Source: SAR116 cluster bacterium AG-321-K23 (GTDB taxonomy: Bacteria; Pseudomonadota; Alphaproteobacteria; Puniceispirillales; Marisalimonadaceae). Taken from it: a DNA stretch of 61,040 bases. The translations under genes were made by a program, and so were the position numbers. The notes under the pieces were generated by a model. It made no database searches. It saw only the letters and a program-made list of their open reading frames with translations, and was not told the origin of the DNA. This document shows, in pieces, positions 7,158-54,265 of the stretch. Location of the stretch: NCBI GenBank assembly GCA_003284565.1, contig QBXO01000008.1:1-61040 (forward strand), in the 5' to 3' direction. Within the stretch, counting starts at the first letter, position 1, and every line of letters begins with the position of its first letter.

Positions 7158-8763
7158 TTGAACCTATTTTTCAGAAAACTGGAGAACTTATATTTTCCTC
7201 TAAAAATGAGGATTTTATTTATAATATTAGTACCGGTTTTATTATATCCAATCATTTTAATTTATTTTAACAAGTACCAAGATATTTTAATTAAATCTGA
7301 ATTTGCAGCTATTGAAAGACAAGGTTTAACACTAACTAAAGCTCTTGCCTTGGCAGAAAATCAATATGGCCTAATCCAGAATAATCAAATATCAAGTCCA
7401 GCTCTACAAAGTCTTATTCCAAAAGTTGAATATGCGTCAAATATACGAGTAAGACTTTTTAATATGTATGGAAATTTAATAGCAGATACAAAAGCGAGTA
7501 TGAAATATAGTCCTTTCGTAAAAGTGAGCCCTTTACCCGCTGTCGATAATACTTTTTCTATAAAAGACAATTTAACAAAATTTGTATCCTTATTTTCAAA
7601 TTTAATTTCAAGACCCCTAAATCTGCCTATTTATAAAGATAATGCAAATTTTTTAATTGAAGACTTTCCAGAAGTAATTATGGCTTTAAAAGGTAGAACA
7701 AAAAAAACTTTACGACAAGACAGTAAAGGTAAACTTTATTTATCTGTAGCTATACCAATTAAAAATATTCGCATGGTAAGGGGAGCAGTCCTTCTTTCCA
7801 TTTCAGGAAAAAAAATTGAACAAGAATTAGTTGATTTAGAAACTGAGCTTTTTAAAGCTTTTGGGCTCATTTTATTAGCAACAATTGCTCTTGCTATTTA
7901 TTTTGGTAGATCAATAACAAATCCAATAGTAAGATTGTCAAATGAAGCAGATAAAATTGCTGAAGATAAAATGCTAAAAACTTTTAACCTAAATCAATTT
8001 AGACATAGGAAAGATGAAATAGGTAATTTAGCAAGATCATTTTTTAAAATGACTAATGAATTACAAAAAAGAATAGATCATATTGCAGAGTTTGCTGCCG
8101 ATGTTGCGCATGAGTTAAAAAATCCGATAACATCTGTAAGGTCAGCCTCTGAAACGATAACCAAAGTTAAAAATTTTGAAGATCAAAAAAAATTAATTAA
8201 AGTAATACAAAATGATGTCGAAAGAATAGATAGATTAATTAATGATATTTCCGCTGCTTCTAAATTGGATGCAGAATTGTCTAGGATAGAAATAAAAGAA
8301 ATAAATATTTCTAGACTTCTTGAAACTCTTGTTGATATAAGATCGTCTACCATAATTTCAAAAATCAACTTGTTAAAGCATACAGAAGATGTTTATATCT
8401 TGGGTGATGAAAATAAAATTGCTCAAGTGTTTGATAATTTGATCCAAAATGCAGCTTCATTTTCAAAAAAAAAATAATTCTATAAATGTTCGATTAGAAA
8501 AAAATTTAGAAAATGTAAGTATTATGGTTGAAGATAATGGTCCAGGTTTTTCAAAAGGATCATTAAATAAAGTTTTTGACAGATTTTATACGGATAGACC
8601 CAAAAATGAAAAGTTTGGTAATCATTCTGGTTTAGGATTATCTATATCAAAACAGATAGTTGAAGCACATGGCGGAACTATAGAGGCTTTAAATCGTTTA
8701 AATGAAAAAAACGAATGTATTGGGGGTAGTGTTAAAGTTACTTTACCAGAAAAAAAATTATAA
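7158..8763 (+). CDS. chvG: Sensor histidine kinase ChvG, reading frame broken at an A10 run
   Basis: The partner kinase of ChvI starts at TTG 7158. There is a TM helix at about 17-38, a periplasmic sensor region, a second TM at about 235-252, and HAMP. HisKA follows with His318 (DVAHELKNP), then the ATPase domain with N-box DNLIQNAA, G1 VEDNGPGF and GLGLSISKQIVEAHGG. The frame stops at 8477 directly after ten A (8465-8474), and the rest of the ATPase domain continues to 8763 in the +1 frame. Nine A would restore a continuous 534-residue protein with no other change. Sequencing error, real mutation and slippage are all possible. Kinase activity as written would be lost. Confidence 0.85.
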
Positions 8764-8843
8764 TTACCTAATTATTAAGAATTCAAGCTTTAATTTCTTA
8801 ATTTTAAATGTTATAGAATGGCTAATTAAAAAAAAGGTTTACT

Positions 8844-10235
8844 ATGAAAGATTATTCAATAACAGACATTAAACTTGCTGATTGGGGTAGAAAAGAAATA
8901 TCTATTGCTGAGACAGAAATGCCAGGATTGATGGCATGTAGAGAATTATTTTCAAAAGATAAGCCATTAAAAGGCACAAGAATCGCAGGTTGTCTTCATA
9001 TGACTATTCAAACAGCAGTTCTTATAGAAACCTTAACCAGTCTTGGTGCTAGTGTTAGATGGGCTAGCTGTAACATTTTTTCAACTCAAGATCACGCAGC
9101 TGCTGCAATAGCAAAACAAGATATTCCGGTGTTTGCAAAAAAAGGCGAAACTTTAAAAGAATATTGGAATTATGTAGATCAAATTTTTACTTGGTCGGAC
9201 AATACCGTTGCAAACATGATTTTAGATGATGGTGGTGACGCAACATTATATATTATACTTGGTGCCAAAGCCGAAAATGGTGATCAAGTTTTACCTAACC
9301 CTGCTAATGAAGAAGAAGAGGCTCTTAAGTCACAAATTTTATCCAGGCTTGAAAGTTCTCCAGGATGGTTCACTAAAGTTAAAAATAGCATTAAAGGTGT
9401 TACTGAAGAAACAACTACGGGTGTTCTTAGATTATATCAAATGGCAGAAAAATGTGATCTTCCTTTCCCAGCAATAAATGTAAATGATTCAGTTACAAAA
9501 TCTAAATTTGATAATCTTTATGGATGTAGAGAATCTTTAGTAGATGGCATTAGACGAGCCACCGATGTGATGTTATCTGGTAAAGTAGCTGTTGTTGCAG
9601 GTTATGGTGACGTTGGGAAAGGATCTGCTGCCTCACTTCGTCAAGGTGGAGCCAGAGTAATTGTAACTGAAATTGACCCGATTTGTGCATTACAAGCTGC
9701 GATGGAAGGATACGAAGTATGTTCTATGGAAGAGGCATGCTCTAGAGGTGATATATTTGTAACAGCAACTGGGAATAAAGATGTTATTACCGTGGATCAT
9801 ATGAGGGAAATGAAAGACAGAGCGATTGTGTGCAATATTGGCCATTTTGATTCAGAAATTCAAGTTGAATCACTTCAAAATATGAAATGGTCAGAGGTTA
9901 AGCCACAAGTTGATGAAGTTGAGTTTCAAGATGGTAAGCGTTTAATAGTTTTAGCAAAAGGAAGATTGGTAAACCTTGGATGTGCTACAGGACATCCTAG
10001 TTTTGTAATGAGTGCTTCTTTTACTAATCAAGTTCTTGCACAAATAGAATTATGGGAAAAGCCAGAAAATTATGACAACAAGGTATACACCTTGCCAAGA
10101 CATTTGGATGAAAAAGTTGCTAAATTACATCTTGATAAAGTTGGCGCCACTTTAAGCAAGCTCTCAAACGAACAGGCTGATTATATTGGGGTCCCAATTC
10201 AAGGTCCTTTTAAATCAGACAACTATAGATACTAA
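8844..10235 (+). CDS. ahcY: Adenosylhomocysteinase (SAH hydrolase)
   Basis: The enzyme splits S-adenosylhomocysteine into adenosine and homocysteine and so clears the product inhibitor of methyltransferases. The 463 residues include the bacterial insert. The substrate region [17 protein letters not shown] is present. The NAD-binding GYGDVGKG loop is near residue 253, and the C-terminal KSDNYRY completes the partner subunit's NAD site. AAAGG precedes the ATG. I see no SAH riboswitch upstream. In relatives, hprK-ptsM-ptsH often lie between chvG and ahcY; here the gap is only 80 bp. Confidence 0.97.
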
Positions 10236-10238
10236 TTT

Positions 10239-10732
10239 ATGAAATTGTTGTTAGAAATAACGATTAAATCTAAAACTGAAATGCATAACTTTGGAATACA
10301 AATGGCAAAGTTATTTTCGCTAAATGATTTGATTACATTTGACGGCGATTTAGGTGTTGGAAAAACTTTTCTGTGCAAATCAATAATAAATAACTTAACA
10401 AATATTAATGAAGTTGTAAGTCCTACATTTAATATTGTTCAAACATATCCATTACAAAAAGATGAAGAAATCTGGCATTGTGATTTTTATAGGATTAATA
10501 GTTTTGATGAAGTAGAAGAGATTGGAGTTTTTGAGGATTTAAAAAAAAAATTATTCTTCTTGAATGGCCAAAATTTAAGATTGAACTAAATGAATTTAAT
10601 CCCTTGAACCTTAATATTAAGATTATAAAAAATAATCAAAGTAAATTATCAGAATATAGAAAAATTTCTTTATGTGGTTCAAAAAAATGGGATAATAAAA
10701 TTAAAAAACTACATAACCTTTTAGCCTTGTGA
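10239..10732 (+). CDS. tsaE: tRNA threonylcarbamoyladenosine ATPase TsaE, frame broken at an A10 run
   Basis: TsaE is the small ATPase that helps TsaB/TsaD make t6A37 in ANN-decoding tRNAs. The start carries Walker A GDLGVGKT (36-43), then SPTFNIVQTY and the metal/aromatic segment WHCDFYRI. The frame from 10239 stops at 10589, because after A10 (10541-10550) it leaves the family reading. The family's LLEWPKF motif and the remaining C-terminus continue in the -1 frame to TGA 10730-10732. Eleven A (or eight) would give a continuous protein; with eleven it is 164 residues, a normal TsaE length. It follows ahcY by 3 bp. Confidence 0.8.
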
Positions 10733-10742
10733 GGTCAATAAT

Positions 10743-12137
10743 TTGAATTATGTCTTTTATGACTTAGAAACTACAGGAAGAAATTCTTCTTGGGATCAAA
10801 TTATTCAAGTGGCAGCTATACTTACAGACGATAAATTTAATGTGATTGAGAAATTTGAAGAGAGATGTCGATTAAAAAAAGGTTTAGTACCTTATCCTGA
10901 GGCATTAATTGTCAATAAAACATCTGTTGAAATTTTAAAAAATGTAAATTTGTCACATTATGAGTTAACAAAAAAAATAGAAACAACATTTAAAAAATGG
11001 TCACCAGCAATTTTTGTTGGATATAATTCAATAAATTTTGATGAAGAATTTATAAGAAAAACTTTTTTTAAAACTCTTTTTGAACCTTATTTAACACAAT
11101 TTAATGGTAACAAAAGAGCTGATGTCATTGGCATGACTAGAGCATCTAAATTTTATTTTCCTGATTGTTTAAAAGTTGGGATTAATGAAAAGGGGAATCA
11201 AGTTTTTAAATTAGATGCCTTAACTGAACTTAATAATATTCCTCATAATGCTCATGATGCTATGGGTGATGTAGATGCTACTATAGAAATTGCTAAAATT
11301 TTGCAGAAAAGTTCCAATAAAGTTTGGAAATCTGGGCTTAAAAATAGTAATAAAATTGATGTAGATAACTTCCTAATCCAAAATAATATTGTTTGTATGG
11401 ATGAATATCTTTTTGGTAAATTCAACGTTTACGCTGTTACTTATGTTTGCAAGAACAAATTTAACTATCCTCAATGTTTTGATTTGTTACATGATCCACT
11501 TGATTATATTGATATGTCTATTAAAGATTTAAAAATTAAAATGAAACAAAAACCTAAATTAATTAAAGAAATTAAAATTAATAAAAATCCTATCTTATTA
11601 GATTCAAGCTTTATTCAGAAAATGCCAATATATCAATCAATTGGGATGGAAGTTTTAACTCACAGAGCAGAAATTATTAAAAATAGCCCGGATTTTAAAA
11701 ATAAAATCCAAACAATCCTTTTTGAAGAGTACGAGACAAAACAAATGACTAAATCACAGATTGATATAATGCCCGAAGAAAGTATTTATTCTGGTGGTTT
11801 CGCGGACAATCACGAAAAATCTAAAATGATAGATTTTCATAATGCTGATTGGGAAGAAAAATTTTATATTTCAAATCAGTTTAAAGATGAACGTCATAAA
11901 TATTTTGCTCATTTTTTAATTTATGAAGAGATGCCTCATGTACTTCCAAAATCTGAATATGAAAATATCCATAAAATTATTGCCAATCAGATTTTAAGCA
12001 CTGATAATGAAAAGTGGAATACAATCCCTAAGGCATATCTTGAGCTAGATAATTTACGTGAAGAATATGAAAGACACGGTAATGATGAAAAGTTATTATT
12101 CCTAGAAGATTGGGATCATTTTTTTACAAGATCTTGA
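10743..12137 (+). CDS. sbcB: Exodeoxyribonuclease I (SbcB)
   Basis: SbcB is a processive 3'-5' single-strand DNA exonuclease used in recombination and mismatch repair. The 464 residues match the ExoI layout. The DnaQ-like domain has YDLETTG (ExoI), YNSINFDEEFIRKTFF (ExoII) and AHDAMGDVDATI (ExoIII). The SH3-like and helical C-terminal part ends with the family's YLELDNLREEYE-type segment. TTG start, with GAGG at 10731-10734 overlapping the tsaE stop. In many alphaproteobacteria the addB-addA pair lies between tsaE and trxA; here sbcB is in that position. Confidence 0.92.
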   Translation: MNYVFYDLETTGRNSSWDQIIQVAAILTDDKFNVIEKFEERCRLKKGLVPYPEALIVNKTSVEILKNVNLSHYELTKKIETTFKKWSPAIFVGYNSINFDEEFIRKTFFKTLFEPYLTQFNGNKRADVIGMTRASKFYFPDCLKVGINEKGNQVFKLDALTELNNIPHNAHDAMGDVDATIEIAKILQKSSNKVWKSGLKNSNKIDVDNFLIQNNIVCMDEYLFGKFNVYAVTYVCKNKFNYPQCFDLLHDPLDYIDMSIKDLKIKMKQKPKLIKEIKINKNPILLDSSFIQKMPIYQSIGMEVLTHRAEIIKNSPDFKNKIQTILFEEYETKQMTKSQIDIMPEESIYSGGFADNHEKSKMIDFHNADWEEKFYISNQFKDERHKYFAHFLIYEEMPHVLPKSEYENIHKIIANQILSTDNEKWNTIPKAYLELDNLREEYERHGNDEKLLFLEDWDHFFTRS

Positions 12138-12185
12138 AAAACAGTATCAATGAATTTAAATTTTAATAAATAAGGAGAGATTAAT

Positions 12186-12506
12186 ATGGCGACGAATAAA
12201 ACAAATGATCAAAACTTTAAAGCAGATGTATTAGAGTCTAAGGAACCTGTATTAGTAGACTTTTGGGCAGAATGGTGTGGACCTTGCAAAGCAATTGCAC
12301 CTTCCTTAGAAGAATTATCTGAAGAAATGAGTAACAAATTAAAAGTTGTTAAAATTAATGTTGATGAAAATCCATCAACATCACAAGCATATAGCATAAG
12401 AAGTATCCCTGCTTTAATGATATTTAAGGATGGAGAAAAAATCTCTGAGAAGATGGGAGCTCTTCCAAAATCAGCTCTTGAATCTTGGATTAATGATACT
12501 ATTTAA
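12186..12506 (+). CDS. trxA: Thioredoxin
   Basis: The 106-residue single-domain thioredoxin has the active site WCGPC (Cys31, Cys34), the buried Asp in VLVDFWAEW and the cis-proline in SIPALMIF. It reduces cytosolic disulfides, including those of ribonucleotide reductase. A strong AAGGAGA Shine-Dalgarno lies 7-8 nt before the ATG. Its stop overlaps the stop of the convergent folC by 4 bp. Confidence 0.97.
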   Translation: MATNKTNDQNFKADVLESKEPVLVDFWAEWCGPCKAIAPSLEELSEEMSNKLKVVKINVDENPSTSQAYSIRSIPALMIFKDGEKISEKMGALPKSALESWINDTI

Positions 12507-13738
12507 TTAATAATAGTTTCATTAAATTTCAACGCATAACCTGCTAAATATAAAGATCCAGTAATTAACAAAGGGGTTTTATTGTCAGCTTTTTGAATAG
12601 CGTCTTCGAAACTTTTTGAAATGTTTGTATTAAAACCTAAGTCATCTAATTTATTTTTTATATCTTGTGGTGTCAGTGAATTTGCTGATTTGGGTATAGT
12701 AGTAGCATAAATTTGATTAATATGTTTTTTAAAAATTTTTACGAAATCTATTATTTCTCTGTTGTTTAACATCCCAATAATTAGGTTCCATTTACCTAAA
12801 GATTGTTTACTTAGATATTGATTAAGAACAATTGCACCATCTTGATTATGTGATCCATCAATTATGGTAATATTTTTTCTAAGATTGAAAATTTGACCTT
12901 CATTTATTTTTTGTATTCTTCCAGACCAAGAGGTTTGTGCAAGCCCTTGTTTTACTTTAGGGAAAGAAATTGAAGGCATTATAAATTTAGCAGCTGTAAA
13001 TGCTGTTGATGCATTTTCGTATTGAAAATCACCAACTAAACCTAACTTTAAATCTTTAGGAATTTTATCTATCTCGATTAGCCTAGAGTTTAATTTTTTT
13101 GCATAAATAACCAGTGTTTTCAATGCTTTATCTTTATTTTGTTTGGCAATTATTACGGGAATGTTCTTTCTTAAAATTCCTGCTTTTTCTTTTGCTATTT
13201 TTTCAATTGTTTTTCCAAGAAATTCTTCATGATCAAATCCAATTTTAGTTATTATGGTAAGTTTTTTATTTTCTATAATATTCGTTGCATCTAATCTTCC
13301 ACCCAGTCCTGTTTCAAAAATATTAATATCACTAGGATCCCGTTTAAAAGCAATGAAAGCTGCTGCAGTAGTAATTTCAAAAAATGTTATTGGTTCAAGA
13401 TTATTTTTTATTTCAACTTCTTTTAATATTTTTAATAAAGTTTCATCTGATATTAAATTTTTTTTAATTCTAATACGTTCATTGAAATTTATTAGATGAG
13501 GAGAAGTATATATATTTACGGACAAATCATGAGCCTCAAAAATTTCTTTAAGAAATGTTGCAGTTGAACCCTTACCATTAGTTCCTGCAATATGGATCAC
13601 ACTATTTAAGGAATTTTGTGGATTATCAAATTTATCCATTAAAAGTTTTATTCTATTAAGATCAAAATCTATTAGTTTTGGATGTAAATCAAACATCCTT
13701 TTTAAAGTTAAAGATAATTGTTTTTTTGTTTTACTCAA
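12503..13738 (-). CDS. folC: Folylpolyglutamate / dihydrofolate synthase
   Basis: FolC adds glutamate to dihydropteroate and/or folates. The 411 residues are the usual size. The Mur-ligase P-loop is HIAGTNGKGSTA, the second conserved segment is FETGLGGRLDATN, and IDGSHNQDGA lies in the C-terminal domain. It is the last gene of the leftward aroA-to-folC block, 23 bp after accD. Substrate preference (bifunctional or FPGS only) cannot be read from the sequence. Confidence 0.95.
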   Translation of the reverse strand: MSKTKKQLSLTLKRMFDLHPKLIDFDLNRIKLLMDKFDNPQNSLNSVIHIAGTNGKGSTATFLKEIFEAHDLSVNIYTSPHLINFNERIRIKKNLISDETLLKILKEVEIKNNLEPITFFEITTAAAFIAFKRDPSDINIFETGLGGRLDATNIIENKKLTIITKIGFDHEEFLGKTIEKIAKEKAGILRKNIPVIIAKQNKDKALKTLVIYAKKLNSRLIEIDKIPKDLKLGLVGDFQYENASTAFTAAKFIMPSISFPKVKQGLAQTSWSGRIQKINEGQIFNLRKNITIIDGSHNQDGAIVLNQYLSKQSLGKWNLIIGMLNNREIIDFVKIFKKHINQIYATTIPKSANSLTPQDIKNKLDDLGFNTNISKSFEDAIQKADNKTPLLITGSLYLAGYALKFNETIIN

Positions 13739-13761
13739 TTTAAACGAAGAAATTTGTCATA

Positions 13762-14616
13762 TTAATTTAAATAAAAAGTTAAAGATTTTAATAGATTAGA
13801 AATTTTAGTTCTTTGTTCTGATCTTGGGATCACAATATCTATCATACCATTTGACTTCAAATACTCTGCAGTTTGAAAGTCTTCAGGTAATTTTTCTTTG
13901 ACAGTTTCTTCTATTACTCTTCTTCCAGCAAACCCAATAATTGCCCCTGGTTCTGCAACATGTATATCACCAAGCATTGCAAAACTTGCAGTTACACCAC
14001 CGGTTGTTGGATTGGCTAGTAAAACTATGTACGGTAGTTTAGCTTTTTTGACTTTATTGATTGCAATTGTTGATCTTGGCATCTGCATTAAGGAAAATAT
14101 ACCTTCCTGCATTCTCGCTCCTCCGGAGGATGGCACCACTATTAGTGAACATTTTCTTTTTATAGCTTCCTCTGAGGCTAAAATTAACCCATCACCCACA
14201 TATCTTCCCATTGATCCAGCCATAAACGAAAAGTCAAAACATGCCAAGATTGCAGGGATTTTATTAATTAATCCATAGCTAACCAATAAAGCATCATCTA
14301 ATTTAGTTTTGGTTTGGGCATCTTTTATTCTATCAGTATATTTTTTTTTATCTTTAAAATTAAGTGGATCTAATTTTGGATTTGGAATTGAAATATTTTC
14401 TATAGTGTTGTTGTCAAAGAGAAACTCAATTCTTTCTTGTGCAGAAAGATGATCATGAAAACCACATGTTTTGCAAACATTATTATTAGCAGAAAATTCT
14501 TTATGAAAAATCATTTGAGAGCAAGATTTGCATTTTACCCATAATACTTCTTCAGGCTCTTTGATTTTAACAAAAGCTTTAAATTTGGGTAAAACCGTTT
14601 CTTTAATCCAATTCAA
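13762..14616 (-). CDS. accD: Acetyl-CoA carboxylase carboxyltransferase subunit beta
   Basis: AccD pairs with AccA to move the carboxyl group from biotin to acetyl-CoA, making malonyl-CoA. The N-terminal zinc ribbon has Cys29, Cys32, Cys48 and Cys51. The crotonase-like core includes SSGGARMQEG, PTTGGVTASFA and GFAGRRVIEET. The 284-residue length is typical. AccA is not in this window. It sits 39 bp after trpA in the conserved trp-accD-folC order. Confidence 0.97.
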   Translation of the reverse strand: MNWIKETVLPKFKAFVKIKEPEEVLWVKCKSCSQMIFHKEFSANNNVCKTCGFHDHLSAQERIEFLFDNNTIENISIPNPKLDPLNFKDKKKYTDRIKDAQTKTKLDDALLVSYGLINKIPAILACFDFSFMAGSMGRYVGDGLILASEEAIKRKCSLIVVPSSGGARMQEGIFSLMQMPRSTIAINKVKKAKLPYIVLLANPTTGGVTASFAMLGDIHVAEPGAIIGFAGRRVIEETVKEKLPEDFQTAEYLKSNGMIDIVIPRSEQRTKISNLLKSLTFYLN

Positions 14617-14655
14617 TTTTATTTCCTTTTTTTTATAAAACCAAATAAATAAGGC

Positions 14656-15474
14656 TTAATTATGTTGTAGAACTTTTGATATTTCTCTAGTAAAATCTAA
14701 ACACGAAATTAAGTTTTTACCGCTTGAATTACCATCATCTTCTAAATTTTTTTTAATTAAATCAACCACAGCAGAACCTATAACAATACCGTCGCATGTG
14801 TCTGACATCAAAGCTGCTTGGGGTGGTGTTCGAATACCAAAGCCAATAACGATTGGTAAATCTGTTACCTGTTTAATTTTTTTTATATTATCCTGGACGC
14901 TTTTAATTTCAGGTGCTTGGGTTCCAGTAATACCTGTTATTGAAACATAATAGACAAATCCAGTGGCATTGTACAAAATCCTTTTAAGTCTTTGTTCATC
15001 AGTTGTAGGAGTAACTAATCTAATCATAGAAAGTTTGTTATTTTCTGCTTCAAAATAAAATTCGTTATCTTCTTCGGGTGGTAAGTCTACAATAATAAGA
15101 GCATCTACACCTAATTCTAAACAATTCTTAATAAATTTTTCTTTTCCAAATTTATATATTGGGTTGTAGTATCCCATTAATATAATGGGAGTATGACTAT
15201 TTTTCTCTCTAAAAATTTTAATTAATAATAAGCATTTTTCTATGTTCATACCTGATTTGAGAGCTCTCTGACTAGATAATTGTATAGATGGTCCATCTGC
15301 CATTGGGTCTGAAAAAGGCATACCAATCTCTATAAAATCCACACCACTCTCAGGTAAATTAGTGATGAGTTTTAAGGAACTCTCAAAATCAGGGTCTCCG
15401 GCGGTTACAAAAATTCCTAAGGCTTTTTTGTTGTCTTTATTTAATTGATCAAAGGTTTTTTTTATACGGTTCAT
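14656..15474 (-). CDS. trpA: Tryptophan synthase alpha chain
   Basis: TrpA cleaves indole-3-glycerol phosphate to indole and glyceraldehyde-3-phosphate. The catalytic residues fall exactly where expected, at Glu49 (FIEIGMPFSDP) and Asp60 (MADGPS). The phosphate-binding loops GFGIRTPPQA and VIGSAVV are intact. It is 272 residues long. It lies 9 bp after trpB on the same strand, so the two subunits are made together and indole is channelled to TrpB. Confidence 0.97.
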   Translation of the reverse strand: MNRIKKTFDQLNKDNKKALGIFVTAGDPDFESSLKLITNLPESGVDFIEIGMPFSDPMADGPSIQLSSQRALKSGMNIEKCLLLIKIFREKNSHTPIILMGYYNPIYKFGKEKFIKNCLELGVDALIIVDLPPEEDNEFYFEAENNKLSMIRLVTPTTDEQRLKRILYNATGFVYYVSITGITGTQAPEIKSVQDNIKKIKQVTDLPIVIGFGIRTPPQAALMSDTCDGIVIGSAVVDLIKKNLEDDGNSSGKNLISCLDFTREISKVLQHN

Positions 15475-15483
15475 AGCTATATT

Positions 15484-16701
15484 TTAAATGTCATCTTTCA
15501 TAATTAAAGGCAAAACAGCTGATAAATCTTTGTCTCCTCTTCCACACATATTCATTATTATAATTTGTCCTTTTCTAACAGAAGCAAGTTTGCCGGTAAC
15601 ATGCAAAGCATGGGCTGGTTCAAGTGCAGGAATAATACCTTCTAAACTGCTACATAGCTTAAAGGCTTCTAAACTTTCTTCGTCAGTAGTTGATAAATAT
15701 TTTATTCTACCAATATCGTGTAGCCATGAATGTTCTGGACCAATACCAGGATAATCCAATCCTGCAGATATTGAATGAGCATCTATTATTTGACCATCAT
15801 TATCTTGCAGTAAATAAGTTCTATTTCCATGAAGAATTCCTGGGGAACCAGCAGTGAGCGAAGCGGCATGAAGATTAGTATTTAACCCTTTGCCTGCTGC
15901 TTCAACTCCATAAATTTCAACATCTTTGTCATCAAGAAAAGGATGAAATAAACCTAGTGCATTTGACCCGCCTCCTATACAAGCAACTAACACATTTGGA
16001 AGTCGGTTTTCTCTTTCTAAAATTTGTCTTTTTGCTTCTTCACCTATGATAGATTGGAAATCTCTTACCATTTTCGGATATGGATGGGGACCTGCTGCTG
16101 TTCCAATAATGTAAAAATGAGTATTAGCATTAGATACCCAGAATCTTAAAGCGTCGTTCATAGCATCTTTTAATGTACCAGTACCTGAAGTGACAGGATT
16201 GATTTTGGCACCTAATAGTTGCATTCTCTGAACATTTGGTTTTTGTCTTTCAATATCTTTAGCGCCCATAAAAACTTCACATTCAAAACCAAATAAAGCA
16301 CATGCTGTGGCAGTTGCAACACCATGCTGGCCTGCTCCAGTTTCAGCAATGATTTTGTTTTTACCCATTTTTTTGGCTAGTAATATTTGACCAATAACAT
16401 TATTAATTTTATGAGCGCCAGTATGATTGAGTTCATCTCTTTTTAAATAAATTTTTGCTCCACCAAAATGTTCAGTTAGCCTCTCTGCAAAATATAATGG
16501 ACTAGGTCTTCCAATATAATCTCTTCTATACATATCTAATTCATCAATGAAAGATTGGTCTTTCATTGCTTTTTCATATGAATTTTCTACATCTAAAATT
16601 AATGGCATAAGTGTTTCTGCAACAAATCTTCCACCATGAATGCCAAATTTACCATAAGCATCTGGACCAGTTTTTAAGCTATTTGAATTCAAGTTTGACA
16701 T
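15484..16701 (-). CDS. trpB: Tryptophan synthase beta chain
   Basis: This PLP enzyme condenses indole with serine. The 405-residue TrpB1-type protein has the PLP lysine Lys98 in HTGAHKIN, the phosphate-binding [10 protein letters not shown] loop, and the conserved EPAHA and CGRGDKD segments. It lies 10 bp from trpF and 9 bp from trpA. No leader peptide or attenuator is visible; the trp genes follow ihfB by only about 50 bp. Confidence 0.98.
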
Positions 16702-16711
16702 GAGTTACCCA

Positions 16712-17353
16712 TTACAATTCTTTACACTTCATCATAAAATTTTCTATTAATTCAGGATCTTTAACACCTTTAACAACTTCTAGACCTGAAGATATATCTA
16801 TTGCTGGTGCTTTAGTAATATCAACGGCTTTTTTTATATTTTCTATGTTTAAACCTCCTGCAAGCATCCATTTCTTTGTAGATTTATAATTGTTAAGGAT
16901 GTTCCAATCAAATTTTTTACCATTACCACCAGGTAAAGTTTCTGATGGCGCATCAAGTAGCAGGATATCACAAATATCTTCAAAATCTGTGGTTAATTGC
17001 ATTAAATTCAATTTATTTTTAACACTTATACCCTTTATTATAGGAATATTTAAATTTTTTTTAATATCCATACATCTATTGGGTTTCTCGTTTCCATGAA
17101 GTTGAATATAGTCAGGTTTTACTTTATTTTTTATTTCAATTAAAAAGTCATCTTTGGGGTTAACAGTTAATGCAACAATTTTAGAAACTGTATTTCTTAG
17201 CTTAAGTAGTTTTTTACAAAGATTAAAAGACACATTTCGAGGTGAATTTTGGTAGAAAACTAAACCTATGTAGTTAGCTTTGCAGTTTATTGCTGCATTC
17301 ATTGATATTTCGTCATTTATTCCACAAATTTTGATTTCAAATTTATTGTTCAT
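16712..17353 (-). CDS. trpF: Phosphoribosylanthranilate isomerase
   Basis: TrpF catalyses the Amadori step of tryptophan synthesis. The 213-residue TIM barrel has the catalytic Cys10 (KICGI) and Asp134 (LLLDA). The phosphate sites are GGNGKKFDW, LAGGLNIEN and DISSGLE. It leads the trpF-trpB-trpA run. Relatives often carry a small lapA/DUF1049 membrane gene between ihfB and trpF; here there are only about 48 bp. Confidence 0.96.
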   Translation of the reverse strand: MNNKFEIKICGINDEISMNAAINCKANYIGLVFYQNSPRNVSFNLCKKLLKLRNTVSKIVALTVNPKDDFLIEIKNKVKPDYIQLHGNEKPNRCMDIKKNLNIPIIKGISVKNKLNLMQLTTDFEDICDILLLDAPSETLPGGNGKKFDWNILNNYKSTKKWMLAGGLNIENIKKAVDITKAPAIDISSGLEVVKGVKDPELIENFMMKCKEL

Positions 17354-17401
17354 TTTAAATAAGTTACATCTTTTTACGAAACACAGAAATCTTGAATATG
17401 A

Positions 17402-17683
17402 TTATTTATTTAAACGGTCTTTCATACCTTTACCCATTCTAAAGAATGAAATATTTTTTGCTGGAACAGCAACAGCGTCACCATTTTTAGGATTTCTAGC
17501 TATGCGTGCTTCTCTTTTTTTTATATCAAAAACGCCAAAACCACGCAATTCAACTCTTTCATTTTTAGAAAGTGCTTTAGCAATAGTATCAAAAAAAACA
17601 TTTACTATTTTAGCAGCATCTTTTTGGTAAATGCTTGGGTTTTTTAAACTTGTAATTTTGATTATAAGATCTGATTTATTCAA
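17402..17683 (-). CDS. ihfB: Integration host factor subunit beta
   Basis: This 93-residue DNA-bending protein pairs with IHF alpha. The HU/IHF fold is clear: the N-terminal helices (NKSDLIIKI) are followed by RGFGVFDIKKREARIARNP, with the intercalating proline at the arm tip, and by the basic C-terminus. It lies 12 bp downstream of rpsA, the normal arrangement in proteobacteria. HU cannot be fully excluded by eye, but the location after rpsA favours ihfB. Confidence 0.93.
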   Translation of the reverse strand: MNKSDLIIKITSLKNPSIYQKDAAKIVNVFFDTIAKALSKNERVELRGFGVFDIKKREARIARNPKNGDAVAVPAKNISFFRMGKGMKDRLNK

Positions 17684-17695
17684 TGTAATACCTAT

Positions 17696-19406
17696 TTAAG
17701 AAGATTTTTCATCTTTTTTTGCTAACGCTGCCCCTAAAATGTCACCTAAACTTGCTCCACTGTCTGATGATCCATACTCTGCCATAGCTTTCTTTTCTTC
17801 CTCAATTTCTTTAGCCTTAATTGAAAGAGAAATTTTTCTTGTTTTTTTATCAATATTAGTAACTGTAGCGTCAACTTTATCCCCTATTCCATAACGGTCT
17901 GTTTTTTGATCAGCCCTCTCGCGTGATAAATCATTCTTCTTAATAAATCCCTTTAAATTGTCACCTACGCTAACCTCTAAACCATTTTCAGATATTTCTG
18001 CAATTGTACATGTAACTGTTGACCCTTTTCTAATATTATCTATTTCTGTAGCAGCAACGTCTTCAGTAAGTTGTTTTATACCAAGAGAAACTCTTTCTTT
18101 TTCAACATCTATATCTAAAACTTTAGCTTTAACTAGAGAACCTTTAACATAACTCTTAATAAGTTCATCCCCGTTACCATCCCAACTTAAGTCAGACAAA
18201 TGCACTAAACCATCCATGTCATCAGTAAGTGCTATAAATAAACCAAATTCAGTAATGTTCCTTACTTCACCTTCAATAGTATCTCCAATTTTAGAACTAC
18301 TCTTATACTTTTCCCATGGATTATCTACGCATTGTTTTATTCCAAGTGAAATACGTCTTTTTTCAACGTCTATCTCAAGCACCATAACTTCGACTTTTTC
18401 TGAAGTAGATACAATCTTCCCTGGATGAACATTTTTTTTTGGTCCAGCTCATTTCTGATACATGCACTAATCCTTCAATACCATCTTCCAACTCAACAAA
18501 AGAACCATAATCAGTAATGTTTGTCACAATCCCTGACATCTTTGCACCAACAGGGAACCTATCAAATACTTTTAACCATGGATCCTCAGTTAATTGTTTA
18601 ATTCCAAGTGAGATTCTTTGAGTTTCGTCGTTAAATTTAATAACTTTAACTTGAACAGACTCTCCAACCTGAAGAGCTTCAGATGGATGATTAATCCTTT
18701 TCCATGATATGTCTGTTACATGCAATAATCCATCAACACCACCAAGATCAACGAATGCACCATAATCAGTAATGTTTTTAATTACACCTTGTAAAACTTG
18801 TCCTTCTTGCAAATTAGCAACAAGTTCAGTTCTTGCTTCAGCTCTACTATCTTCTAATACAGCTCTTCTAGAAACGACTATATTACCTCTTCTTCTGTCC
18901 ATCTTTAGTATTTGAAAAGGTTGCGGTGTTCCCATTAAAACACCAAGGTCTTTAATAGGTCTAATATCAACCTGACTTCCAGGTAAAAAAGCTGTTGCTC
19001 CTTCTAAATCAACAGTAAATCCACCCTTTACCTTGCCAAAAATTATACCATTTACCCGTTGTTGTTTTTCGAGGGCCACTTCTAGATTTACCCAAGCCTC
19101 TTCACGTCTTGCTTTTTCTCTACTTAAAATTGCTTGGCCATTAATATCTTCAAGTCTTTCAATGTATACTTCAACTGTATCGCCTACATCAATTTTTATA
19201 TCATCTTCATTGTTACCGAATTCTCTTAATGGAACTCGTCCTTCACATTTCAAGCCAACATCAATTAAAATCATATCCTTTTCAATTGATATTACAGTCC
19301 CAGATACCACTGATCCTTCAATACTTGTCATCTCTTCAAAGCTTTGATCCAATAATTCAGCGAAACTTTCCTTTCCAGGTGTGGTGATCGTTTCAGTTTG
19401 AGTCAA
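17696..19406 (-). CDS. rpsA: 30S ribosomal protein S1, frame broken at an A9 run
   Basis: S1 binds mRNA on the 30S platform and is normally essential. Six S1 (OB-fold) repeats are present across the two frames, with typical [12 protein letters not shown] and [12 protein letters not shown] repeat cores. The frame from the TTG start (19404-19406, AGGAG just upstream) is lost at nine A on the coding strand (complement of 18432-18440). It then reads off-family residues to a stop at 18375. The correct frame resumes at once and runs to 17696. Eight A would give one 569-residue protein of normal length. Confidence 0.92.
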
Positions 19407-19496
19407 TATTTTCTCCTATCAAAAGTATGTAATATAAATTTAAGTCGTTATAAATATGTAAAGCTAACAAATCAATGATTATATTATGACGAAATG

Positions 19497-20150
19497 TTAA
19501 ATTTCATCAATTATTTTTGTTACCTTTAAAAATAACTCATCCGCATCAATAAATGTTGTATCAATTACATATGCGTCATCAGCGGGGACAAGTGGCGAAA
19601 TTGATCTTTTAATATCCAATTTATCTCTATCATTCATTTGTTTGATTAAAAATTGCAACATACACTTTTCGTCTTTTTCATGCAAGAAAGATATATTTTT
19701 TTCTAATAATCTTCTCTTTGCTCTAACTTCAATAGATGCATCTATAAAAAATTTAAAATTAGCATTTGGAAGTATTTTAGTTCCAATATCTCTTCCATCA
19801 AGTATACAGCCAGAAAACTTCTTTTTATTCTCTTCTACAAATTCTTTTTGTTTTAAATTCAAAATTTCTCTTAATTTAGGGTGTGTTGCAATTAAAGAAG
19901 CCAGTTTTGCTGTTTCTTCTGACCTTAAATCTTCTTTTTTTATTTCTAGAAAATTTAAATTTCTAGCGATTACAGAACTGTGATATTCTAAATCGTTAGA
20001 AATATTTTTTTTTTTAATAATTAATTCATTAGCAACTTTTCTATATAAAAGTCCTGTATCTAAATAAATAAAATTATACTTTTCAGCTAATTTTCTAGCT
20101 AAAGTACCTTTACCAGAGGCAGCAGTACCATCAATTGCAATTTCTATCAT
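19497..20150 (-). CDS. cmk: Cytidylate kinase
   Basis: Cmk phosphorylates CMP and dCMP. The P-loop GTAASGKGT spans residues 8-16, followed by YLDTGLLYR and the CMP-binding DGRDIGT segment, then SPLVPADDA. It is 217 residues long. It stays in frame through an eleven-A run (coding strand, about 20005-20015), which matters for judging the frameshifts in neighbouring genes. It lies between aroA and rpsA, as in most proteobacteria. Confidence 0.96.
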   Translation of the reverse strand: MIEIAIDGTAASGKGTLARKLAEKYNFIYLDTGLLYRKVANELIIKKKNISNDLEYHSSVIARNLNFLEIKKEDLRSEETAKLASLIATHPKLREILNLKQKEFVEENKKKFSGCILDGRDIGTKILPNANFKFFIDASIEVRAKRRLLEKNISFLHEKDEKCMLQFLIKQMNDRDKLDIKRSISPLVPADDAYVIDTTFIDADELFLKVTKIIDEI

Positions 20151-20179
20151 GTTAAATCTTTTTTTAATTTTATTAATAT

Positions 20180-21514
20180 TTACTTTATGCGGTTCAATTT
20201 GGCTCCAATTCCATTCATTACTTCGAAAAAAGAAGGAAAAGATGAATTTATAGTGTCAGTATCTAAAACTGTTATTGGATTTTCAGTTATTAATCCTAAA
20301 CATAAAAATGACATAGCAATTCTGTGATCATTTTTTGATATAATAGTTTTATTTCCATTTAAAATGCAATCTGGTCCTTTGCCTTTTATTACTACCTTAT
20401 CTTTTGTATCAACAGTTTCGACACCTATTGAATTTAATCCGTCACAGATTGCGCTGATTCTATCAGTCTCTTTATACCTTAACTCTTCTACACCTTCCAT
20501 TATAGTAGATCCTTTTGCTTTCACAGCCGCAATAGAAAGAATTGGGTATTCATCTATCATAGATGCGACTCTTTTCTTAGGTATAGTTATTCCATTTAAT
20601 TTACTGTAGCTTGCTGATATATCTGCAACAGTTTCGCCGTTAATTTTTCTTTTATTAGAAAATGTAATGTTAGCCCCCATTTCAATCAAGCTTGTGTATA
20701 AACCAACTCTTAAATCGTTTATACACACATTTGATACTTTAACATGACTGTTAGGTGTTATTATTGACGCTACTATAGGAAATGCTGCACTTGACGGGTC
20801 TGAGGGTATTTCTATATCTAATGCTTTTAGACACGGTAAACCCTCTAAAGTAATTTTCCAAGAAGAATCAGGTAATTGTATTGTAGAAATTTTAGCTCCA
20901 AGATATTTTAACATATTTTCGGTATGATCTCTTGATAAGGCTGGTTCTACAACAATTGTGTTCCCTGTTGATGATAATCCTGCCAATAAAATACTAGACT
21001 TGATTTGAGCCGATGCAACAGGACTAATATATTCAATAGGTAATGGAATTTTGCTCCCTCTTATTTTTAAAGGTAAATTATCGTTATTTGGATCATCAAA
21101 AATTGCTCCAGTTTTCAACAATGGTATTATAATTCTTTTCATAGGTCTTTTTGATAGTGAATCATCTCCAAAAAATGTAGCTTCTACATCTGAACCAGCT
21201 ACCAGTCCCATTAGCAATCTAGATCCTGTTCCGGAATTACCCATATCTAGTCTATAATTCGAACCAGATAGATTACCAATACCACTGCCAAAAATTTCCC
21301 AAAAATCATTTTTTTTATTAATTTTTAATCCTAACAATTCTAAAGCGTTTGCCGTTGCAATCACATCATCACTTTCTAGAAGATTTGTAATTTTGATTTT
21401 TCCAGGAACTAATGAACCTATTATTAGGGCTCTATGTGATATTGATTTATCACCTGGAACAACTATATCACCAGATAATTTTGATGATTTATTTGAAGAT
21501 ATGGAATTCATCAA
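20180..21514 (-). CDS. aroA: 3-phosphoshikimate 1-carboxyvinyltransferase (EPSP synthase)
   Basis: AroA joins PEP and shikimate-3-phosphate in the pathway to chorismate. The 444-residue protein has Lys23 in PGDKSISHR, the LGNSGTGSRLLMG loop, LSRDHTENM and the C-terminal NDHRIAMS. It is first in the leftward block that also holds the tryptophan genes. It is divergent from the FYDLN-acid gene across 145 bp, where promoters for both directions must lie. Confidence 0.97.
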   Translation of the reverse strand: MMNSISSNKSSKLSGDIVVPGDKSISHRALIIGSLVPGKIKITNLLESDDVIATANALELLGLKINKKNDFWEIFGSGIGNLSGSNYRLDMGNSGTGSRLLMGLVAGSDVEATFFGDDSLSKRPMKRIIIPLLKTGAIFDDPNNDNLPLKIRGSKIPLPIEYISPVASAQIKSSILLAGLSSTGNTIVVEPALSRDHTENMLKYLGAKISTIQLPDSSWKITLEGLPCLKALDIEIPSDPSSAAFPIVASIITPNSHVKVSNVCINDLRVGLYTSLIEMGANITFSNKRKINGETVADISASYSKLNGITIPKKRVASMIDEYPILSIAAVKAKGSTIMEGVEELRYKETDRISAICDGLNSIGVETVDTKDKVVIKGKGPDCILNGNKTIISKNDHRIAMSFLCLGLITENPITVLDTDTINSSFPSFFEVMNGIGAKLNRIK

Positions 21515-21589
21515 AAAATTTTCCTTTTATATTAAAAAATTAATATATATTTTATTTATCAAAAGTTAATAAAATTCTTAAAAAAACTT

Positions 21590-21619
21590 TTGACAGATTG
21601 ATTTTTTTGAGTGTAATCG
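21590..21619 (+). promoter_or_regulatory. Candidate promoter for the FYDLN-acid gene and tRNA-Ala
   Basis: A perfect -35 TTGACA (21590-21595) is followed after 17-18 nt by GTAATC/TAATCG. This lies about 40 nt before the ATG at 21660. The -10 is weak but resembles the T-A-ATCG hexamer in front of tRNA-Leu. A GGAGAGG Shine-Dalgarno follows at about 21649-21655. Confidence 0.35.
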
Positions 21620-21659
21620 CATTATAGTAATTTAATTTATATTATTATGGAGAGGCATA

Positions 21660-22083
21660 ATGGCAAAACCTGAATGGGGCAAAAAAAAGAACTTGTCAAT
21701 CTTGTGGAACAAAATATTACGATTTAAATAAAACTCCTATGATATGTCCGTCTTGCGGAGTTGAATTTGACCCCGATCTTTTACTTAAAACAAAAAAAGG
21801 AAAAAGTTTGTCTTCTAAAATTATAACTGATAACGAAAAGGAATTGACAGCTGACATATCAGATTTAGATGATATTGCTTCTAATTCTGATAATGAAGTT
21901 GTAAGTGATGATGATCCGTTACTTGAAATAAATAAAGATGATCCAAATGATATTACTGATGATGATAATATTGCTATTGATGAAGACATTTCTTTTATTG
22001 ACGATGATGATGTAACCGAAGATGATGATATATCAGACGAAAACAGCATAAATGTAGAGATTACTGAGGAAGATAAAAATTAA
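21660..22083 (+). CDS. TIGR02300-type FYDLN-acid zinc protein, frame broken at an A8 run
   Basis: This conserved alphaproteobacterial protein of unknown role has two CxxC pairs forming a probable zinc ribbon and a very acidic tail. From ATG 21660 (GGAGAGG just upstream) the frame reads MAKPEWGKK, then leaves the family at eight A (21681-21688) and stops at 21731. With seven A it continues as RTCQSCGTKYYDLNK and CPSCG, then the D/E-rich tail to 22083, for 140 residues. tRNA-Ala begins 10 bp after the stop. This layout, divergent from aroA, is common in alphaproteobacteria. Confidence 0.82.
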
Positions 22084-53253: not shown

Positions 53254-54265
53254 TGAAATTAAAGATCATTTTATCTTGGTAGATAAATGCGCCGAAGAAA
53301 CAAGAATAGTTGAAATTAAGAGTAACAAAATTGCTAAAATCACTTGTTGGCAAGATGAAAAACCTCCATTAATTGGAAATGTTTTTGATGCAACAGTTTT
53401 AAAAAGATTAAATAGTGGGATTGTTAGGGCTAGCATTAAAAATAAAAAAATAGTCACTGTCAGGGCAGGGAAAAAATTTTTTAAAAAAAATGAAAAAATT
53501 AAAGTTATTATAACTAGTGAAGAGTTTGAAGATAAGCCTTTACAAGCAAAATTATGGTCTGAAAATTATGATTTAGAAAACATTAATGTTGTAAAGCGCA
53601 TAATTGATCTTTTCTTCAATAAAAACATACCTGTAATAGAAGACAAACATGCGATCTATTGGAATGACATGGATTTAGACAGTTGTTTACTTAATGCTCT
53701 AGATCCAATGATTAATATCGAAGATGGTGGTGTTTTATGGATTGAAAAAACAAAAGCTGCCACTCTTATTGATATTGATACTAAAAAAAGATTAATTAAT
53801 AATGAAGATGAAATGTTAAAGTTTAGTAAAGATGCGTTTATCAAATGTATGGATGAAATTAAATTGAGAAATATAGGAGGTATGATTCTTATTGATTTTC
53901 CTAGAATGTCGTTTAATAGAAAAAAAAATCTTCATGAATTTATTATTAAAGAAGGAACAAAAAAAAATTCAGACAGTAATTTTTTAGGTTTTTCTAGATT
54001 ACAACTTTATGAGATGTATGTACCAAGAAACTTCAAATCTCTAGAAAGTTTTTATATTAATAAAAATGAATTTGATTTTAAAAATCACCTAAGATCATTA
54101 TGGAGAGCATCTAAGAAAATCAAATCTAAAAATAACATTGAGTTTTTATGTGGTAAAAATCTCTTTAAAAGATTAAAGCTTAAAAAAATACCAGAATTCA
54201 TAAATATTGTTGAAAGAATAGATCTCCCAAAGGATTACGGTGAGTTATTAGAAAAAAAAATATAA
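53246..54265 (+). CDS. rng: Ribonuclease E/G family protein (short form)
   Basis: This ~339-residue RNase G-like protein of the short alphaproteobacterial type linked to maf. An S1-like N-terminal region (GNVFDATVLKRLNSGIVRASI) precedes the RNase H-like core with WIEKTKAATLIDIDT and GGMILIDFPRM, which carry the metal Asp residues. The CPxC zinc link and C-terminal scaffold of RNase E are absent. I chose ATG 53246 over TTG 53228, which lies deeper inside maf. Confidence 0.87.
   Translation: MINEIKDHFILVDKCAEETRIVEIKSNKIAKITCWQDEKPPLIGNVFDATVLKRLNSGIVRASIKNKKIVTVRAGKKFFKKNEKIKVIITSEEFEDKPLQAKLWSENYDLENINVVKRIIDLFFNKNIPVIEDKHAIYWNDMDLDSCLLNALDPMINIEDGGVLWIEKTKAATLIDIDTKKRLINNEDEMLKFSKDAFIKCMDEIKLRNIGGMILIDFPRMSFNRKKNLHEFIIKEGTKKNSDSNFLGFSRLQLYEMYVPRNFKSLESFYINKNEFDFKNHLRSLWRASKKIKSKNNIEFLCGKNLFKRLKLKKIPEFINIVERIDLPKDYGELLEKKI

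Follow-up and report, generated by a model that had tools for sequence, protein, structure and literature searches.

An out-of-frame run of ten A's shared by tsaE genes of low-GC SAR116 bacteria is probably read by -1 slippage, apart from three private frame breaks in the same contig

Four frame losses at runs of A

Do four conserved genes that each lose their reading frame at a run of A share one cause? The question is raised by a stretch of 61,040 nucleotides (the window; positions 1 to 61,040 of contig QBXO01000008.1) from SAR116 cluster bacterium AG-321-K23, a low-GC SAR116-type alphaproteobacterium and not an endosymbiont. The four runs and the frame losses that a first-pass annotation had described in chvG, tsaE, rpsA, and the FYDLN-acid gene were confirmed in the window sequence, as was the presence of long in-frame runs, among them the A11 run of cmk. 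The features are listed below in window coordinates.

10239..10589, + strand: first frame of tsaE, comprising its start codon, the Walker A motif (GDLGVGKT), and the sequence ahead of the run; 116 aa when read straight on
10541..10550, + strand: A10 run in tsaE, the frame-transition site
10535..10732, + strand: second part of tsaE in the -1 frame, from IILLEWPKF... to the stop codon, with the conserved Glu-Trp pair inside
8465..8474, + strand: A10 run of chvG (sensor kinase), one base over 19/19 congeners; private
18432..18440, - strand: A9 run of rpsA (ribosomal protein S1), T9 on the + strand, one base over 20/20 congeners; private
21681..21688, + strand: A8 run near the start codon of the FYDLN-acid gene, one base over 18/18 congeners; private
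20005..20015, - strand: A11 run of cmk, in frame, used as a control; seven relatives have a run of only 5 to 8 there

Every break does lie at an A-run of the coding strand. As a clue, however, this was rejected as a chance expectation, because A-runs far outnumber T-runs in the ORFs of the window (41 coding A-runs of at least 8 versus 4 T-runs).

Three of the breaks are private to one genome

The same runs were compared in related genomes, as the first-pass annotation had proposed, and this separated tsaE from the other three genes. The extra base was present in 0/19 congeners for chvG, 0/20 for rpsA, and 0/18 for the FYDLN gene, whereas the tsaE break was common to the genus. The four breaks are therefore not a single class, and one shared cause for all of them was rejected. 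In chvG, HisKA and HAMP precede the break and HATPase_c follows it; in rpsA, S1 repeats flank the break on both sides (Pfam). Each private break needs one base fewer to restore the frame. In rpsA, the surplus base may be C or A rather than assuredly A, because the congeners vary: the window has ACC followed by A9, some congeners have ACC followed by A8, and G038 has AC followed by A9.

The three private breaks all lie inside 13 kb, and loss of one base is the least favored direction of poly-A slippage (PMC5574713; PMC9207662). With no congener sharing them, these properties make them look like local error. Their most likely origin is local error in assembly or amplification, or else private or very recent mutation, and genuine recent mutations are possible among them. 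Assembly error and slippage rescue had been offered as competing explanations of the whole set of four, but error fits chvG, rpsA, and the FYDLN gene, and slippage fits tsaE. Comparison of congeners can thus tell true frameshifts from assembly error inside one contig.

The tsaE run is conserved out of frame in two genera

A split tsaE with an out-of-frame A10 was found in 24 of the 27 genomes of the low-GC SAR116 genus that have tsaE and in 2/2 genomes of a second genus. In all 26 split genomes, the run was exactly A10 with the same -1 relation. The three in-frame genomes of the first genus carried A11 (G035 and G023) or TTT followed by A10 (G031). In the rest of the order, tsaE passed the break point in one frame in 73/74 cases, the remaining one being cut by a contig end, and in a survey of the class 110/110 tsaE genes crossed it in one frame. 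The codons flanking the run vary among the split genomes, and the split gene was seen in single-cell genomes and metagenome bins, including bins from other projects. The tsaE A10 is not an assembly quirk.

The first A of the run occupies a free third codon position and was A in 26/26 split genomes (14 TTA, 8 CTA, and 4 ATA). For comparison, in 13 neighboring genes, Leu/Ile columns always ended in A in 25/445 cases and invariant Lys columns were always AAA in 43/137, while all-AAA blocks were seen in 0/4 invariant Lys-Lys blocks and 0/1 Lys-Lys-Lys block. Of 19 window runs of at least 9, only the tsaE run kept a length of 10 or more in each of the 7 relatives, and just one coding A-run of at least 10 was present in the compared 40-60 kb in 5/7 relatives. 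The in-frame accD run (14341-14349) had length 9 in 6/7 relatives; some in-frame runs of 9 are thus well kept too, and run conservation by itself proves little.

In a tsaE tree calculated with the run left out, the in-frame genomes stood at two separate places: G035 grouped with G031 (support 100/99), and G023 adjoined the off-frame G019 and G038. By this topology, two lineages regained the frame independently. The count of returns is from the tsaE tree, and the poorly resolved rpsA tree was left out.

Both parts of tsaE are constrained as protein

In the window, the first frame covers positions 2-95 of 128 of the TsaE profile (PF02367) before the run, and the 65 residues past the run have no Pfam score by themselves. 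The in-frame congener G035 has Walker A and the EW region in one protein (positions 2-126 of 128, 106 bits), whereas the EW part of the window is in the -1 frame. Alignments to solved TsaE chains placed the break just ahead of the EW pair, and the straight reading meets a stop codon 13 codons past the run. In E. coli TsaE, E108A and W109A each abolish t6A activity (PMC4330362). The straight product, without the Glu-Trp pair and the C-terminal part, should be nonfunctional in t6A synthesis.

Median omega was 0.16 before the run. Past the run, the -1 frame gave 0.38 and the two shifted frames gave 0.66 and 1.43; the C-terminal part thus evolves faster than the first part. The gene combines the same out-of-frame run in several species with protein-level constraint (omega 0.16 and 0.38), as is characteristic of a conserved homopolymer frameshift. 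A pseudogene was rejected on the grounds that constraint persists in the -1 frame and that no second full TsaE match was found in the near-complete split genomes G034, G039, G043, G005, and G002. A weak second match to the profile exceeded the cut-off in G005 with its neighbors (26.9 bits, positions 12-65/128, inside a 313-aa frame). Among 7 genomes tested for partners of the t6A pathway, both TsaD and TsaB were found in 5 and a single member of this pair in the remaining 2, and TsaC was found in 6/7.

How full-length TsaE may be made

The conserved run, together with a constrained -1 part that holds the Glu-Trp pair and is in one frame elsewhere, indicates that full-length TsaE is probably made by slippage on A10. 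We put at roughly 75% the probability that an old tsaE frameshift at A10 has been kept by selection and yields functional protein through a -1 frame change on the run, the other three breaks being separate and most likely errors or very recent mutations. Straight reading would give a TsaE without the Glu-Trp pair, inactive in t6A synthesis, and a -1 frame change on the run would give working TsaE. The favored route is RNA polymerase, which would add one A to a fraction of transcripts; ribosomal -1 slipping on A AAA AAA may contribute or be the main route. The gain to the cell would most simply be a low, steady dose of TsaE.

Slippage by RNA polymerase is preferred to a ribosomal shift for two reasons, which together favor it. 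The A10 is conserved at both ends, although one end would be unconstrained if only a ribosomal site of 7 A's were needed, and neither a conserved downstream structure nor a steady Shine-Dalgarno-like element upstream was found among 29 sequences (mean z of -0.29 for 50 nt and +0.27 for 80 nt; upstream pairing energies of -2.8 to -6.8 kcal/mol at shifting positions). The window alone had a downstream-structure z of -1.33. Programmed -1 ribosomal frameshifting, in which tRNA-Lys(UUU) occupies both the P and the A site and slips one base backward on A AAA AAA within the run, is unlikely but a serious alternative. In the 26 split genomes, the run has the slippery heptamer X XXY YYZ in the fitting frame relation with tRNA-Lys on both codons, and in G039, G043, and G044 a stop codon directly follows it. 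G034 has a single tRNA-Lys with anticodon UUU (34/35 tRNA candidates checked). Furthermore, poly-A cassettes with 11, 9, and 7 A's shifted at 63, 40, and 10% in E. coli, and the same source takes constant direction among orthologues as a mark of the ribosome and not of RNA polymerase (PMC3711429); the constant direction in 26/26 tsaE genes counts by that rule against RNA polymerase. Also to be set against the favored reading are Buchnera transcripts, in which the authors found no error restoring a frame (PMC5574713), and the two lineages that manage without the frameshift. Against the programmed shift stand the lack of a stimulator and the conservation of the whole A10, which is longer than the heptamer requires. 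Some known sites, however, lack a stimulator.

It is rather improbable that the frameshift is an old accident that slippage rescues without benefit. Such tolerance would suit a low-GC genome with many A-runs and has precedents in Blochmannia (PMC3017870), but the lineage is described as streamlined and under strong purifying selection (PMC8547437). One extra A mends the frame, yet only two such returns appear on the tsaE tree. Base gains and losses should be far more frequent in a stretch of ten A's than at other sites. In phase variation, replication slippage on the run would toggle tsaE on and off, and a coding-region homopolymer seen in two lengths would fit this; we consider it very improbable, as the off-frame runs were A10 in 26/26, with no A8, A9, or A12, and an off state would be costly in a pathway that E. 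coli cannot do without (PMC4330362). That the two conserved parts are separate polypeptides that assemble is likewise highly unlikely, because the three in-frame congeners, like the rest of the order, encode both in a single frame. An independent start for the C-terminal part was rejected, since its -1 frame has no conserved start codon and none at all in 3/26 split genomes. Least credible is that all four breaks are homopolymer assembly or sequencing errors. This fits the private breaks in chvG, rpsA, and the FYDLN gene, which lie within 13 kb with none upheld in 394 kb elsewhere, but is refuted for tsaE, where the same A10 would have been miscalled in 26 single-cell and metagenome-bin genomes despite varying flanking codons.

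A putative t6A sensor

A doubtful but testable extension of slippage-dependent TsaE synthesis is autoregulation, in which t6A shortage would leave tRNA-Lys under-modified, slippage on A10 would rise, more full-length TsaE would be made, and t6A would recover. The t6A37 modification, for which TsaE is needed, sits on tRNA-Lys(UUU), and this tRNA, the sole tRNA-Lys detected in G034, reads the A10 run. Sliding on AAA is up to 25-fold faster for tRNA-Lys that is unmodified, in work that did not isolate the effect of t6A (PMC9207662). The hypothetical RF2-like feedback is a chain of published links. An out-of-frame A10 acting as a sensor would account for the maintenance, by selection, of a hypermutable run off-frame; if so, a tRNA modification would be tied by direct feedback to the slippery codons that its tRNA reads.

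Relation to known slippage-dependent genes

Endosymbionts, dnaX, and mobile elements provide known examples of genes that depend on slippage at poly-A runs. The tsaE case resembles that of the AT-rich insect endosymbionts Blochmannia and Buchnera in having a poly-A indel, shared between species, in an otherwise intact conserved gene; there, rescue by transcriptional slippage has been proposed or shown (PMC3017870), and for tsaE it is proposed from sequence. Unlike those endosymbionts, the SAR116 lineage is free-living and marine, with a genome of ~2 Mb and one such gene found so far, and this gene serves essential tRNA modification with run length and direction constant over two genera. Thermus thermophilus dnaX and its poly-A relatives also have nine to ten A's as the sole signal, and transcriptional slippage has been shown for Thermus dnaX (PMC3711429). 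Both dnaX products have known roles, whereas the short tsaE product is missing the Glu-Trp pair and ends in an unconserved tail. As proposed for tsaE, the essential translation gene prfB (RF2) depends on a frameshift for its full product, and some lineages have lost this frameshift (PMC12421855, PMC13245932); prfB uses a +1 shift at a stop codon sensed by its own product, whereas tsaE would use a -1 shift at poly-A with hypothetical sensing. The magnesium chelatase genes also shift -1 on poly-A (A7 to A11), with efficiency growing with run length in E. coli (PMC3711429), but have no link to the tRNA reading the run.

The tsaE frameshift was not found in the searched literature, which mostly excluded subscription journals, nor by term in the available text of PMC3711429, PMC5009743 (first 300,000 characters), PMC8547437, and PMC12262181. 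If the proposed reading is true, streamlined genomes can build a slippery run into the expression of core machinery, here an essential gene of translation in a free-living lineage that is abundant in the ocean, and gene callers and completeness estimates will score a working essential gene as broken.

Further scans for frame breaks

Across 8 genomes, the 40-60 kb under comparison contained no second shared frameshift that could be found. The reference-based scan in this search was not fully sensitive: it missed the tsaE split of G022 and the FYDLN break, the latter because it lies too near the start, both of which other comparisons show. No plasmid record matched the window region. Other contigs of AG-321-K23, 394 kb in total, were scanned by ORF, with a homologous-protein check covering 30 kb; this yielded 6 rows at 5 places and no further break that stood up. 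Three places were dismissed as antisense to a longer ORF and one as the junction between two antiporter genes. At the fifth, a 571-codon frame ends and a 192-codon frame follows; it was dismissed because the 192-codon frame has a counterpart of equal length in G034. The G034 match of the 192-codon frame was flagged for one internal stop codon. Breaks confined to single genomes occur in G031 and G034 as well, and recurrent gene ends beside A-runs in several genomes were read as gene junctions.

Comparison of the four frame losses with related genomes

The frame losses that the first-pass annotation had reported at A-runs in chvG (A10), tsaE (A10), rpsA (A9) and the FYDLN-acid gene (A8) were all found in the sequence. 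Their constant position at a coding A-run is uninformative because the ORFs of the window hold 41 coding A-runs of at least 8 versus 4 T-runs. The window, with a GC content of 26 to 34%, is contig 8 of the AG-321-K23 genome (1.81 Mb, 88 contigs, 68.75% complete), and its rpsA has its best named match, at 96% identity, in the SAR116-cluster genome AG-896-N20. The low-GC SAR116 subclade (~30% GC, mostly single-cell genomes) is described as streamlined and under strong purifying selection (PMC8547437).

Genomes of the order were placed in GTDB-style groups g1 (the genus of the window) to g20. Each run was aligned with its syntenic counterpart in as many as 20 congeners; where DNA identity was computed (15 of the 20), it was mostly 74-86%. 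The extra base was absent from every congener aligned for chvG (0/19), rpsA (0/20) and the FYDLN gene (0/18). By contrast, 17 of 20 congeners carried the same A10, out of frame, in tsaE; three were in frame, G035 and G023 with A11 and G031 with TTT followed by A10. Comparison with relatives, the check proposed in the annotation, thus separates three private breaks from a common one, and the original finding is half artefact, half discovery.

The tsaE frameshift is conserved

10541-10550 (+): A10 run of tsaE, after which the second part continues in the -1 frame

A family search of 58 genomes with the in-frame TsaE of G035 found tsaE in 27 g1 genomes, split over two frames in 24, and split in both g3 genomes (2/2); in g2 and g4 it lay in one frame. 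The search found no match in 13 g1 genomes, most of them incomplete. Across the order, 103 of 136 genomes matched, comprising the 26 split genomes, the 3 in-frame g1 genomes and 74 from other genera. Among those 74, a single frame spans the junction in 73, and G115 is truncated by a contig end ahead of it. In a survey of the class, the TsaE profile matched in 111 of 114 genomes; the match of the window ends at profile position 96, which the other 110 pass in one frame. A conserved frameshift in tsaE of low-GC SAR116 is well supported.

In all 26 split genomes, the run was exactly A10 with the second part in the -1 frame. The codon ahead of the Lys codons was TTA (14), CTA (8) or ATA (4), and its last base, the first A of the run, is a free third codon position that is nonetheless invariant; in-frame G031 has TTT there. 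In 13 neighboring genes (19-21 genomes aligned), 25 of 445 Leu/Ile columns always ended in A and 43 of 137 invariant Lys columns were always AAA, giving a chance of ~0.002 for the purity of the run (three Lys columns and one Leu/Ile column, independence assumed). Read straight, split tsaE meets a stop 0 to 12 codons past the Lys codons, with an unconserved tail. Median omega was 0.16 before the run and, after it, 0.38 in the -1 frame versus 0.66 and 1.43 in the two shifted readings. The -1 frame after the run is under constraint.

In a tsaE tree built without the run, G035 grouped with G031 (100/99), and G023 stood apart from them, next to off-frame G019 and G038. With the three in-frame genomes in two positions, the frame was regained twice. 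Elsewhere in both genera the off-frame A10 persisted. A ten-A run mutates easily, and gaining a single A would bring the gene back into frame, yet the off-frame state has lasted, which suggests that it is favored, or at least without cost; selection on it is likely.

Function of the split gene and means of frame restoration

Alignment to solved TsaE chains placed the break directly ahead of the conserved Glu-Trp pair. In Escherichia coli TsaE, E108A disables ATP binding and abolishes t6A activity, and W109A abolishes t6A activity (PMC4330362). No second full TsaE match was found in the near-complete split genomes G034, G039, G043, G005 and G002; their extra matches cover at most profile positions 10-65, and a weak second match in G005 exceeds the cut-off only together with its neighbors. 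Among seven genomes tested, TsaD-family matches were double (TsaD and TsaB) in five and single in G000 and G002, and TsaC was present in six. Judged by these matches, the t6A pathway is present and the split gene is its only TsaE candidate. The TsaC match of G034 lies in a composite protein; the frames that hold it measure 594-613 aa in four other genomes and 490 aa in G039:

G034 contig 21, L272:726-2507 (-): inositol-monophosphatase domain followed by TsaC (Sua5/YrdC and Sua5_C), one 593-aa protein

tsaE of low-GC SAR116 would thus appear to depend on slippage. RNA polymerase slipping on the A10 and inserting an A would restore the frame, as would the ribosome slipping -1 on A AAA AAA within the run, and a mixture of the two is possible. 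The direction suits both, since polymerase mostly inserts on A-runs and this heptamer allows the ribosome a -1 slip; in other genes, -1 shifts of 63, 40 and 10% are reported for 11, 9 and 7 A's (PMC3711429). The same source treats a constant frameshift direction as a sign of the ribosome, and the direction in tsaE never varies. However, conservation covers the whole A10, both ends included, and no other element around it, which counts for RNA polymerase. From sequence, we favor RNA polymerase over the ribosome by roughly two to one.

Should the ribosome be the slipping machine, a feedback loop would follow. TsaE serves t6A37, and the A10 run is read by tRNA-Lys(UUU); G034 showed no other Lys tRNA in a check of 34 of its 35 tRNA candidates. 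On AAA, E. coli tRNA-Lys lacking all modifications slides as much as 25-fold faster than the native form, a comparison that does not isolate t6A (PMC9207662), and yeast without t6A genes shows more +1 and -1 frameshifts on reporters, not globally (PMC4717488). A loop of TsaE, t6A and tRNA-Lys at the run would be a bold reading, to which neither the absence of a stimulator nor the unvarying length of the run lends special support.

The three private breaks

Restoring the frame takes one base fewer in each of chvG, rpsA and the FYDLN gene. In Buchnera transcripts, nearly all insertions (151 of 157) fall in homopolymers, compared with 16 of 57 deletions (PMC5574713), and ribosome movement on poly-A is mainly backwards (PMC9207662). 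The private breaks would therefore be harder to rescue than tsaE. The rpsA match was stop-free in 25/25 congeners with a strong match; frame lengths were 364 to 573 aa, with the lower values from incomplete contigs.

All three breaks lie inside 13 kb, and the remaining 48 kb of the window showed no additional break in a protein-guided scan against seven relatives. On 20 other contigs of AG-321-K23, 394 kb were covered by an ORF scan able to detect the chvG and rpsA breaks. It returned six candidate rows at five places, all of them rejected: three places lie antisense to longer ORFs and two are gene boundaries. If the chvG and rpsA breaks fell at random over the 455 kb, the chance of both lying in the 61-kb contig would be ~0.02. 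A local assembly or amplification error is the probable cause, and recent real mutation is less likely.

Besides tsaE, the protein-guided scan showed one break in the seven relatives themselves, in G031, and 200 kb of G034 held one more single-genome break:

G031 contig 6, ~24.45 kb of the joined stretch: frameshift at T7 in another gene, absent from the six other relatives
G034 contig 1, ~197 kb of the joined stretch: frameshift near A8 and A7 runs, with an intact homologue in G035

Other runs and features of the window

The tsaE run was the only one of 19 window runs of at least 9 kept at 10 or more in 7/7 relatives; good conservation is also seen for some in-frame runs of 9. Other features were as follows:

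14341-14349: coding A9 of accD, in frame and 9 long in 6/7 relatives, a possible in-frame slippery site
54252-54260: A9 beside the end of a gene, with an open frame after it; seen again in several relatives and read as a gene junction
54641-57198 (-): adjacent DUF1501 and DUF1800 proteins, a pair of unknown function
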